From Deltaproteobacteria bacterium (GTDB taxonomy: Bacteria > JAUYMQ01), in assembly GCA_030698575.1 (NCBI GenBank), contig JAUYMQ010000434.1, positions 1 to 9,909 of the forward strand: DNA of 9,909 nucleotides, in the 5' to 3' direction. Below the pieces are notes generated by a model. That model had not been told where the DNA came from, made no database searches, and worked only from the letters and a program-made list of their open reading frames with translations. The translations under genes and the position numbers were made by a program. Positions 4,354 to 8,809 of this stretch are shown one piece after another. Position 1 is the first letter of the stretch. Each line of letters begins with the position of its first letter.

Positions 4354-7300
4354 GTGATGGCGGGGACACCATCAAGGGCGGTTGGTTCCATCGCGGCAGC
4401 GATCGGGTTCTTCCTGATCCTGGCGCATGGGCTATTTGGCGTTGCTCCGGCCCATGCGGTCGAGGGCGCGAGCGCACCGACGCGTGAGACGCGGGTCGTA
4501 CTCGCGATCTTGCCCTTCGAGGTGAGCGAGCCCGAGCGCATGACCTACCTGCAGGAGGCCGCCATGGACCTCCTGAGTTCCCGCCTCGAGCAGCACGGCG
4601 GCATCCAGGTCATCCAGAAGTTTCTTGTGCTCGAGGCCGTGGGCGACGCCGCCGGCAAGGCCCTCGCCGAGCAGCGGGTCCAGGGGGTGGGGCAGCAGCT
4701 CCAGGCCGACTACGTCGTGCTGGGGAGCATCACGAAGGCGGGGAGCAGCTACTCGCTCGATGTGAAGGTCTGGAGCGTCGCCACAGCCTCCACCGCCGGC
4801 CGGGTCTACTCACTCGCCCGCGGAGACGACGCCATCGTCCCGCGAATCCAGGAGGTAGCCGACAAGGTCGCGTCCATCGTGGCGGCGCCTCCGCCATCCG
4901 CGCCGGAGCCCGGTAAGGAGACCCTCAGCTTCATCTCCGAGATTCAGATCCAGGGGGCCGATGAAGGGGAGGAAGACGAGATTCTGCTCTCTCTCGAGAG
5001 CCACGTCGGGTCCACGTTCTCCGAGCCTTCGCTCGGGGAGGACATCCGGCGCCTCCTGACCAGGCGCAACGTCCGCGACGTCGAGGTGCGGGTCACGGAC
5101 ACGCCGGAGGGGCGCGTGCTCACCTACCGCATCACGACGGGCAAGGGGCCCAAGGCCTCGGTGAGCGTTCCCCAGGCCGAGCGTGTCGCCGAGGTCCGCA
5201 TCACGGGCAACTCGCGTATCGAGGAGGAGACGATCCGCTCCCGAATCGTGATGCAACCCGGCGATCCCTACACGCGAGAGGGGCTCCAGGATGATGTCCG
5301 CAACGTTCACCGGCTGGGTTACTTCCGGGACGTCCAGGTTGACGTTCGCGGGTCCGAGCAGGGTAAGACCATCACCTTCATCGTATCCGAGAATCCGATC
5401 ATCCGTTCGATCAACTACGCCGGGAACCGCCATACCAAGAAGGACAAGCTCGACGAGGTTCTGACGATCAAGCCGAACGAGACGCTCGACTTCAAGAAGC
5501 TCTACGAGAATCAGCAGCGGCTCCAGTCCTACTACTCCCAGAGCGGCTACTACCTGGCCAGCGTGAAGTACAGCCTCCTCCAGGTCGACGAAAACAGCGT
5601 GGCGGTGACCTTCGACGTGGAGGAAGGGAACAAGCTCAAGCTGAAGTCGGTCGAATTCGTCGGGAACGAGAAGTTCAGCGATCGGCAGCTCAAGGGCGTG
5701 ATGAAGACCAAGACCTGGGACTTCATCTCGCCCATCATGAGCAAGATTAACAATCGCGGAATCTACCGCGAGCCGATCTTCTACGAGGATATCCAGAAGG
5801 TGCAGGAATACTATCTCGATCACGGCTACCTGCGTGCCCAGGTTGGAGAGCCCGACGTGACGCACGACCAGAAGTGGCTCTTCGTGAAAGTCGATATCAC
5901 CGAGGGGGATCCCTACAAGGTCGTCCAGGTCGACGTCGAGGGGGACGAGTTTCTCGACAAGGGCGCCGTGCGCAACGACTTCCAGATCAAGACGGGTGAG
6001 ACCTTCAATCGGCAGCTCATGACCAACGACATCGACAGGCTGACCGAGCGATACTCGAACCGGGGTTTCTTCTACGCCAATGTGACGCCGCTTACTGAAG
6101 TCGACGACGAGAAACAGTCGGTCGAGATCACCTACGACGTCGAGAAGGGCAACATCGTTTACTTCGAGGACATCGACATCGTCGGCAACACCAAGACGCG
6201 CGACCCAGTCATCCGGCGGCAGGTGGCCGTGAGCGAGGGCGAGCTCTACAACGCCTCGGCCGTGGAGTACTCCAAGAACCGCGTGAAGGCCACGGGCTTC
6301 TTCGAAGACGTGACCGTCAACACGCGGGTGGGGTCCACGCAGAACCAGCTCGATCTCACCGTCGGGGTCAAGGAGCGCCCGACGGGCTCCTTCAGCTTCG
6401 GCGCAGGCTTCAGTTCGGTCGACGAGTTCATTTTTGCCGCCCAGATCCAGCAGCAGAACCTCTTCGGCCGCGGCCAGCAGCTCGGGCTCTCGGGGGACTT
6501 CGGCGGACGCCGGACCGACGTCACGGCCCGCTGGTCCGACCCGTACCTGTTCGGCTCGAACTGGGGCGGGAACGTGAGCGCCTTCGCTGATCGCCGCGAC
6601 TTCAACGATTTCGAGCGCCGCGCGGCGGGCGCCAGCGCGAACATCGGCTATCCGATCTTCGACAACACGCGGGTCTTTGTCGGCTACAGCTACCAGAATC
6701 TCGAGGTGGATCAGGTCGGGTTCGACTCCACGGCGCTGCTCATCCGGGAAGATCTGAGGGGCGGCGCCACGACCGGCGCCTTCACTCCCTCGATTATCCG
6801 CGACACGCGAAACGACCGGCTCGAGCCGACGGCGGGCTCGCTCTACAGCCTGGGGTTCGAAGTGGCGGGGGGTGGACTCAGCGACAACGAATTCACAAAG
6901 GTCGAGGCGCGCGCGACCTGGTGGTGGCCCTTCAAGCTCTTTCCCTGGGATTCCGTGGTCGCGCTGAACGTCCGCGCCGGTGGGGCCGACCCGAAGAACA
7001 CGCTCGACGACTACGGTATCGTCGAGCCGGTTACGAACCTCGGGACGGTCGGCGCCGACGGCTTCGAACCTCCCATTTGCTGCTCCGGCGGGCGCGAGGC
7101 GGTGGCGGTTCCCGGGAACGTGAAGATGGCCGTGGGGGACTCGTCCCACCCGGACACGACATTTCCCCTCTCGGTTCTCGACAGCGACCAACTGCTGCCG
7201 ATCACCGAGCGGTTCTTCCTCGGCGGCCTGAATTCCGTCCGCGGGTTCGAGGCGCGCTCCCTCGGGCCGCGCCGGGCCATCATGCAGCGCGTGGAGCTGG

Positions 7301-7692
7301 AGGACGTGGAGGGCGGCATCGGCGCGGGGGCCGGAAGCCCTATTCCCAACGGTACCATTCAGTATATTGCGTTCGACTCCAACGGAAACGGCATCGTCGA
7401 TTTCGAGGAGTCGGAGGTCATCGGCGGCAACAAGTACGCGGTCATCAATTTCGAGTACCAGTTCCCCATCAGTCGGAAGGCGGGCCTGGGCGGGCTCTTT
7501 TTCATCGACAGCGGCCAGGCCTTCGCCGAGGGCGACTCCATCAACCCGAGCGATTTCCGGACCGGCGCGGGCGTGGGGGTGCGCTGGCGCTCCCCCTTCG
7601 GTCCGTTAAGATTCGAGTGGGGAGTCCCGCTGGACAAGGAAGAGGGAGAGGATAGTTCCGTTTTCGAGTTCAGCGTGGGCAGCCCCTTCTAG
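4354..7692 (+). CDS. bamA: Outer-membrane protein assembly factor BamA with extra N-terminal domain
   Basis: Outer-membrane Omp85 insertase that folds beta-barrel proteins into the outer membrane. At 1112 codons it is far longer than E. coli BamA (810). A signal peptide has a hydrophobic core near 13-30 and a likely cut after AHA (33-35). Residues about 46-178 form an alpha/beta domain resembling TolB-N or CsgG-like folds (VVLAILPFEV; ADYVVLGSITKAG). Six POTRA-like repeats follow, near 191-262, 278-346, 349-425, 428-518, 521-598 and 601-673. The last five align in order with E. coli P1-P5, so the first is extra. The 16-strand barrel spans about 675-1112, with the loop-6 VRGF motif at 962-965 and a terminal aromatic (FEFSVGSPF). 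Insertions lie near 877-945 (with Cys909-Cys910) and in loop 6 (EF-hand-like 1008-1019). The start is GTG 4354 or ATG 4357; both have only a weak ribosome binding site (GGGG 4349-4352). It lies 45 bases after lolD. Confidence 0.96.
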   Translation: MMAGTPSRAVGSIAAAIGFFLILAHGLFGVAPAHAVEGASAPTRETRVVLAILPFEVSEPERMTYLQEAAMDLLSSRLEQHGGIQVIQKFLVLEAVGDAAGKALAEQRVQGVGQQLQADYVVLGSITKAGSSYSLDVKVWSVATASTAGRVYSLARGDDAIVPRIQEVADKVASIVAAPPPSAPEPGKETLSFISEIQIQGADEGEEDEILLSLESHVGSTFSEPSLGEDIRRLLTRRNVRDVEVRVTDTPEGRVLTYRITTGKGPKASVSVPQAERVAEVRITGNSRIEEETIRSRIVMQPGDPYTREGLQDDVRNVHRLGYFRDVQVDVRGSEQGKTITFIVSENPIIRSINYAGNRHTKKDKLDEVLTIKPNETLDFKKLYENQQRLQSYYSQSGYYLASVKYSLLQVDENSVAVTFDVEEGNKLKLKSVEFVGNEKFSDRQLKGVMKTKTWDFISPIMSKINNRGIYREPIFYEDIQKVQEYYLDHGYLRAQVGEPDVTHDQKWLFVKVDITEGDPYKVVQVDVEGDEFLDKGAVRNDFQIKTGETFNRQLMTNDIDRLTERYSNRGFFYANVTPLTEVDDEKQSVEITYDVEKGNIVYFEDIDIVGNTKTRDPVIRRQVAVSEGELYNASAVEYSKNRVKATGFFEDVTVNTRVGSTQNQLDLTVGVKERPTGSFSFGAGFSSVDEFIFAAQIQQQNLFGRGQQLGLSGDFGGRRTDVTARWSDPYLFGSNWGGNVSAFADRRDFNDFERRAAGASANIGYPIFDNTRVFVGYSYQNLEVDQVGFDSTALLIREDLRGGATTGAFTPSIIRDTRNDRLEPTAGSLYSLGFEVAGGGLSDNEFTKVEARATWWWPFKLFPWDSVVALNVRAGGADPKNTLDDYGIVEPVTNLGTVGADGFEPPICCSGGREAVAVPGNVKMAVGDSSHPDTTFPLSVLDSDQLLPITERFFLGGLNSVRGFEARSLGPRRAIMQRVELEDVEGGIGAGAGSPIPNGTIQYIAFDSNGNGIVDFEESEVIGGNKYAVINFEYQFPISRKAGLGGLFFIDSGQAFAEGDSINPSDFRTGAGVGVRWRSPFGPLRFEWGVPLDKEEGEDSSVFEFSVGSPF
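7375..7410 (+). other. EF-hand-type calcium-binding loop within BamA loop 6
   Basis: Codons for BamA residues 1008-1019 read DSNGNGIVDFEE. This fits the 12-position EF-hand loop at every key position: Asp1, Asn3, Asn5, Gly6, a hydrophobic Val at 8, Asp9 and the bidentate Glu12. It lies after VRGF...LGPR and before the strand beginning GGNKYAVINFEYQFP, the segment that aligns with extracellular loop 6 of E. coli BamA. Calcium binding is inferred from the pattern alone. Confidence 0.6.
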
Positions 7693-7758: not shown

Positions 7759-8304
7759 ATGCTCGGCAGACACCTGACCTATTCGCTTGCAGTCGCATTG
7801 CTCATTGGGGCGTTCGCCGTGCCGGCGATGGCGGAAGACCTGAAGGTCGCCTATGTGGACATGGAGCGCGCGTTCACCGAGTGCGAAGCCGGAAAGACCG
7901 CGAAAGGCGTGTTCACGCGGAAGCTCGAGAGCCTCACCCGCCGCATCGAGGGCGAGGAAGGCCAGCTGACCCGGATGCGCGATGATCTGGAGAAGTCCGC
8001 CTCCACGCTGAGCGGGGACGCCCGCAGCGAAAAGGAAATTAGCTACCGGGACAAGTACCGCAACTATCAGCGGCTCGTGAAGGACTCCCAGGACGATCTC
8101 AGGCGGGAGGACTCAGAGCTGACGAACAAGATCGTGGGGACGTTGCTCCAGGTAGTCGAGAAGGTGGGGAAGGGTGGGGGCTACACGCTCGTTCTCGAGA
8201 AGAAGTCGGTTCTCTACGCGGCGCAGTCGATCGATATCACCGACCAGGTGATCCAGGAGATGAACACGCGACCCAATCCTGTAACCGTGACGGAAAAGAA
8301 CTAG
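7759..8304 (+). CDS. skp: Periplasmic chaperone of the OmpH/Skp family
   Basis: Periplasmic holdase that, in the known family, forms a trimeric jellyfish-like cage around unfolded outer-membrane proteins on their way to BamA. It has 181 residues. A signal peptide (hydrophobic core about 9-20) has a likely cut after AMA at residue 25. The mature start is KVAYVDMERAFTECEAGK (29-46), the usual family opening strand and helix. A long charged, coiled-coil-prone region (about 47-130) forms the tentacle, and a return strand pair follows (YTLVLEKKSVLYAA, 142-155) with a final helix (ITDQVIQEMN). One cysteine, Cys42, lies in the mature protein. The start ATG 7759 has AGGGAG (7745-7750) at 8 bases. Its place directly after bamA is the classic arrangement; fabZ follows after 7 bases. 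Confidence 0.9.
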   Translation: MLGRHLTYSLAVALLIGAFAVPAMAEDLKVAYVDMERAFTECEAGKTAKGVFTRKLESLTRRIEGEEGQLTRMRDDLEKSASTLSGDARSEKEISYRDKYRNYQRLVKDSQDDLRREDSELTNKIVGTLLQVVEKVGKGGGYTLVLEKKSVLYAAQSIDITDQVIQEMNTRPNPVTVTEKN

Positions 8305-8311
8305 GAGAGCC

Positions 8312-8809
8312 ATGTCGATCCCCCCGTCCCTGGATCAGGAACGGATCTGCGAGCTGCTGCCGCACCGCCCACCCGCGCTCATGATCGAGATGGTGACGGA
8401 CGTGAAGCCGGGCGAGTACGCGGTCGGCATCAAGACGGTCCGGCCGGGAGATTCGTTCCTTCAGGGGCACTTCCCGGACCAGCCTGTCATGCCGGGCGTC
8501 GCGATCATCGAGTGCATGGCGCAGACGGCGGCTGTGCTCAGCCACCTGACTGCGCCCGAGGCGCTGAGCACCGGTGCTGTGGTTCTCCTGGGGATCGATC
8601 GGGCGCGTTTTCGGCGGCCGGTGGTTCCCGGCGACACGCTGCGGATTGAGGTCCGGATAGTCCAGCGCCGCGACCCGATCTGGAAGTTCCATGGCCTGGC
8701 CCTGGTGGGAAATGAAAAAGCGGCGGAGGCGATGATTACCGCGGGCCTGACGACCCGGGGTGAGTGGACCTTCAGCCCCACCCGCTCGAAACCGGAGGGG
8801 AAGAGATGA
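8312..8809 (+). CDS. fabZ: 3-hydroxyacyl-[ACP] dehydratase FabZ
   Basis: Cytoplasmic hot-dog-fold enzyme that dehydrates (3R)-hydroxyacyl-ACP to trans-2-enoyl-ACP in type II fatty acid synthesis. Its substrate pool is shared with LpxA, which explains their usual pairing. It has 165 residues, slightly longer than E. coli FabZ (151) because of a basic tail. The active-site motif GHFPDQPVMPGVAIIECMAQ (52-71) supplies catalytic His53 and Glu67. The opening LLPHRPPALMIEMV (15-28) and the segment RARFRRPVVPGDTL are also typical and distinguish it from FabA. The start ATG 8312 is preceded by AGGAG (8303-8307) at 4 bases, partly inside the skp stop codon. The stop TGA 8807-8809 overlaps the lpxA start as ATGA. 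lpxD, which commonly sits between skp and fabZ, is missing here. Confidence 0.96.
   Translation: MSIPPSLDQERICELLPHRPPALMIEMVTDVKPGEYAVGIKTVRPGDSFLQGHFPDQPVMPGVAIIECMAQTAAVLSHLTAPEALSTGAVVLLGIDRARFRRPVVPGDTLRIEVRIVQRRDPIWKFHGLALVGNEKAAEAMITAGLTTRGEWTFSPTRSKPEGKR
8794..8798 (+). promoter_or_regulatory. Ribosome binding site that fixes the lpxA start
   Basis: GGAGG lies 7 bases before ATG 8806. This supports starting LpxA at 8806 rather than at the in-frame GTG 8764, which would lie inside fabZ and add 14 residues unlike the family's N-terminus. Confidence 0.75.

Follow-up and report, generated by a model that had tools for sequence, protein, structure and literature searches.

We identified a calcium-type loop in an exceptionally enlarged extracellular loop 6 (L6) of BamA, encoded on a 9,909-nucleotide contig from a Deltaproteobacteria bacterium (the window). 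The loop, DSNGNGIVDFEE, is encoded at positions 7375..7410 of the plus strand and comprises BamA residues 1008-1019. The initial annotation had placed a perfect EF-hand loop at precisely these positions, and the translation agrees with it residue for residue. All 12 EF-hand loop positions are satisfied, with D1008, N1010, N1012, the backbone oxygen of I1014, D1016 (through water) and E1019 as the expected calcium ligands. The motif is therefore real and correctly located, and the statistics given below show that it is non-random. We think that calcium probably acts here as a structural staple within an enlarged, lineage-specific L6 cap.

The 1112-residue protein that carries the motif is a genuine BamA. 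Its gene, bamA (4354..7692, plus strand), encodes an N-terminal extension, POTRA domains and a 16-stranded barrel. In profile searches it scored 626 bits against TIGR03303, above the equivalog cut-off of 297, and Pfam recognised five POTRA domains and an Omp85 domain. POTRA repeats, a 16-stranded barrel and a VRGF motif in L6 are thus all present. The N-terminal extension of about 275 residues (4354-5180) precedes the region matched by TIGR03303 and shows weak similarity to TolB_N-like (E-value of 0.04) and DUF3280 (E-value of 0.013) profiles; residues 194-263 may form an extra POTRA domain. Around bamA lies an ordinary set of genes, in the order lysyl-tRNA synthetase-like, FtsX/MacB-type permease, ABC ATPase, bamA, ompH/skp-like, fabZ and lpxA. 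In other bacteria lpxD often sits between the skp-like gene and fabZ. Here the skp-like gene and fabZ directly adjoin each other (together 7759-8809), and lpxD is absent between them. The sole further Omp85-superfamily gene found in the genome (L123, on contig C501) looks TpsB/FhaC-like, has a short L6 and, on inspection, contained no calcium-type loop.

The extent of L6 was read from an AlphaFold2 barrel model, for which an alignment of 52 BamA/Omp85 sequences was the input. The model has 16 strands and a mean pLDDT of 82, and it superimposes on E. coli BamA with a Z score of 34 over 333 residues. Strand beta11 (867-880) ends at residue 880 and beta12 (1027-1040) starts at residue 1027, so L6 spans residues 881-1026 (6994..7431, plus strand). 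With 146 residues it is nearly three times as long as usual: in the 51 other aligned barrels its median is 52 and its length never exceeds 60. The enlargement consists of two insertions. One, of about 60 residues, lies in the ascending arm (6994..7236, plus strand), which counts 81 residues before VRGF compared with 17-24 (median 19) in the 51 other barrels. Pfam gave no match to this insertion. Its structure is predicted with no confidence (block pLDDT 37-51), and it holds the adjacent pair C909-C910 (7078-7083, plus strand), the only two cysteines in the whole protein. At the tip of L6 stands the VRGF lid-lock motif (residues 962-965; 7237..7248, plus strand), the RG of which is invariant in the alignment. 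The other insertion, of about 30 residues, lies in the descending arm (7249..7431, plus strand), which ends in the conserved GGN (1024-1026), and lengthens the distance from VRGF to GGN to 65 residues, compared with a median of 32 in the other barrels. The calcium-type motif, located between VRGF and GGN, forms the end of this descending insertion.

Two insertions in one loop, with arms of 81 and 65 residues, could also point to a docking function. The enlarged L6 and its calcium loop would then form a platform for a lineage-specific partner, such as a lipoprotein, a surface polysaccharide or LPS, and calcium would give the interface its shape. In Flavobacterium johnsoniae an extended outer loop of BamA, L5, is such a platform and carries BamM (PMC12611786). 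The BamA of that organism resembles ours in its enlarged extracellular loops, with 76 extra residues in L5 and 16 in L6, and BamM contains seven metal ions that were assigned as calcium (PMC12611786). However, these reported calcium ions reside in the partner and not in L6 of BamA. For our protein any such partner would be putative, and the ascending insertion offers neither a Pfam match nor a confident fold. We regard a docking platform as a fair alternative that would be compatible with the staple, albeit a rather improbable one.

Chance could produce an acidic turn in an expanded surface loop, and the motif might thus be a coincidental, Gly/Asn-rich turn that drifted into an EF-like form without specific metal binding. 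Compact BamA L6 loops often contain D-x-N-G-N or D-x-D-G-x as an ordinary turn just before GGN. D/N/G turns without the full motif are found at the same spot in GPKDANGNEFGGN (L074), GPLDEDGEAVGGN (L059) and GPKDSDNDPVGGD (L012), and the Pfam EF-hand scores of our motif are weak. However, its second half also fits (G6, V8, D9, E12 and the Phe at position -1), beyond D-x-N-G-N, and no other L6 loop, out of about 80, went as far. Per shuffled BamA, 0.0003 occurrences of the strict motif are expected, and 0.019 of the loose 12-position form. Across the whole 4.1-Mb genome, the codon pattern of the motif gave 18 matches and its reversed-pattern control gave none. Most of the other matches fell in proteins that carry either TSP3 repeats or a dockerin or GspH pseudopilin domain, kinds of protein with known calcium binding, and a few in proteins without a Pfam match to any of the three. 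This company and the contrast with the reversed control show that the codon pattern marks calcium-type loops in this genome rather than background. Taken together, we consider a coincidental turn unlikely. Three RHS-repeat proteins of the same genome (L103, L109 and L110) contain bacterial TSP3 repeats of the DxDxDG type, and L110 also matches a Pre-toxin TG domain.

The metal-binding reading does not make the motif a canonical EF-hand. It fits the 12 loop positions of the PROSITE PS00018 pattern, but it fails the full 13-residue form, which demands a hydrophobic residue at position 13; here that residue, 1020, is Ser. Pfam EF-hand profiles scored it at 13.4-15.0 bits, below the EF-hand_1 cut-off of 25.4. 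In the barrel model, a short predicted strand precedes the loop (residues 1004-1007, YIAF, with Phe at position -1; 7363..7374, plus strand; model residues 331-334). This is followed by a DSNGN turn and a second short predicted strand inside the loop (residues 1013-1016, GIVD; 7390..7401, plus strand; model residues 340-343). The predicted setting is thus strand-loop-strand and not helix-loop-helix, at modest confidence (block pLDDT 62 and 70). An AlphaFold2 prediction of the isolated 60-residue fragment was set aside, as it had a mean pLDDT of 49.5 and no predicted fold. Without flanking helices, with Ser at position 13 and with Pfam scores under the gathering cut-off, a canonical EF-hand was rejected.

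The Dx[DN]xDG calcium loop appears to be the better class. The linear motif D-x-[DN]-x-[DN]-G-x-[ILV]-[DSTN] with a distal acidic ligand is matched by DSNGNGIVD..E, with Asn, the less common choice, at position 5. A 38-residue query against PDB sequences returned EF-hand calcium-binding proteins at the top, namely calcium vector protein, EhCBP1, troponin C and calmodulin (best E-value 7e-4), and judged by its sequence the motif is probably a working calcium loop. Rigden and colleagues described Dx[DN]xDG loops with demonstrated calcium binding in several structural settings, strand-loop-strand among them, and noted that a calcium site arose in CD2 once one of these loops had been placed between two of its strands (PMC3123361). 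The BamA loop shares with these the linear motif, the Glu at position 12 and, as predicted, the strand-loop-strand setting; it differs in its Asn at position 5 and in that we infer its calcium binding. The text of that paper uses neither the term outer membrane nor the term beta-barrel (PMC3123361). As only three ligands are acidic (D1, D9 and E12) and positions 3 and 5 are Asn, the affinity may be modest.

As far as can be seen, the motif appears to be lineage-specific. No other barrel among the 52 aligned BamA/Omp85 barrels (19,502 amino acids) contained a Dx[DN]x[DN]G motif in our search, and it was likewise absent from all of the approximately 80 other L6 loops examined. The nearest other BamA barrels in the alignment are about 40% identical over this region, and phylum searches around these barrels led to very small phyla and contributed little. 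A search by phylum returned the source genome alone, and the BamAs compared are more distant. A contig search recovered 22 relatives titled Myxococcota-related or Deltaproteobacteria, with 27-38% identity, all of which have a short L6; the more distant BamAs examined all have a shorter L6 and lack the ligands. Scanning 386 genomes for the EF-loop-plus-GGN pattern revealed no second BamA, and the two other matches were both non-Omp85 proteins rich in DxDxDG repeats. This pattern requires GGC-AAC anchor codons, so loops in AT-rich genomes can be missed by it. A search of viral contigs for close relatives found none; the pattern had 15 matches there.

How the calcium-type loop relates to the disulfide of E. 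coli BamA can be seen from an alignment with the K-12 protein (L127). The motif lies opposite CATQDGAKDLC, the C690-C700 segment before GGN, which bears out the proposal that it occupies the place of the L6 disulfide. The two loops are alike in that both occur in the descending arm of the same protein, at the same spot just before GGN. They differ in that E. coli has a Cys pair there, and our BamA has the calcium-type loop together with the ascending insertion of about 60 residues. The initial annotation further stated that no cysteine is present; this is true of the descending arm only, as the ascending arm of L6 contains C909-C910. A second correction concerns size, since with 146 residues the whole loop is much larger than the annotation indicated.

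Whether calcium has taken over the work of a disulfide is a question that these data answer in part. A good calcium-loop sequence and the aligned position are both consistent with such a replacement. On the other hand, cysteines between VRGF and GGN occur in only one of the 52 aligned L6 loops (L069). In most BamAs, L6 lacks a disulfide and a calcium loop alike, so in general there is no cross-link that needs replacing. The need for one may arise here only from the unusual length of L6. Among the four longest descending arms seen, the calcium-type loop is found in that of the window (62), a Cys pair in those of L138 (60) and E. coli (47), and neither in that of L128 (48). A cross-link may thus go with descending-arm length, for which four cases are an indication and not a test. 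The descending-arm Cys pairs of L138 (DCAATPGC) and L069 (CGDEEFQSDC) are both near the place of the E. coli disulfide.

A structural staple would work as follows. The 12 residues would form a Dx[DN]x[DN]G-type calcium site, resembling an EF-hand loop, between two short beta segments of the L6 descending arm. Because extracellular calcium is usually plentiful, the site would be filled nearly always. The bound ion would hold the additional L6 stretch in a defined shape atop the barrel, in the position that the disulfide-closed mini-loop has in E. coli BamA, and the VRGF tip would thereby be left free for its usual seat in the barrel. The data show the motif itself, its position in L6, how improbable it is by chance, the size of L6 and that the other BamAs examined lack the motif; calcium binding, constant occupancy and stapling are inferred. 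Calcium is known to order the extracellular loops of another outer-membrane barrel, BtuB (PMC7360065). The likeness is limited to this ordering of outer loops, as BtuB uses an aspartate cage with two ions, in connection with vitamin B12 binding, and not an EF-type loop.

The same position in L6 had led to the suggestion that calcium controls the insertase. Binding and release of the ion would move L6, the position of the lid would switch the insertase, and insertion of outer-membrane proteins would depend on external calcium. L6 with its VRGF is functionally central in BamA (reviewed in PMC4890855), and an insertion in E. coli L6 at F648 yields a protein that is unable to rescue BamA depletion (PMC3871556). 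However, E. coli L6 beyond A672, which includes the part aligned with our motif, may be non-essential (PMC3871556), and this argues against the segment being central to catalysis or regulation. Nothing in our data suggests a switch, and an extracellular site probably meets a fairly constant calcium concentration. Calcium-dependent control is therefore unsupported, and we consider it very improbable.

Of the mechanisms considered, a structural staple has the best support. New in the BamA described here are the 146-residue L6 and its two insertions, one of them with an adjacent Cys pair. Our searches of open-access full texts, which leave aside most subscription papers, found no EF-hand-type calcium site described in BamA. 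L6 counts among the signature elements of the Omp85 superfamily. If the loop is indeed stapled by a metal, the extracellular half of the insertase lid would be free to evolve new stabilised caps, and disulfide and calcium would be interchangeable solutions for holding them.
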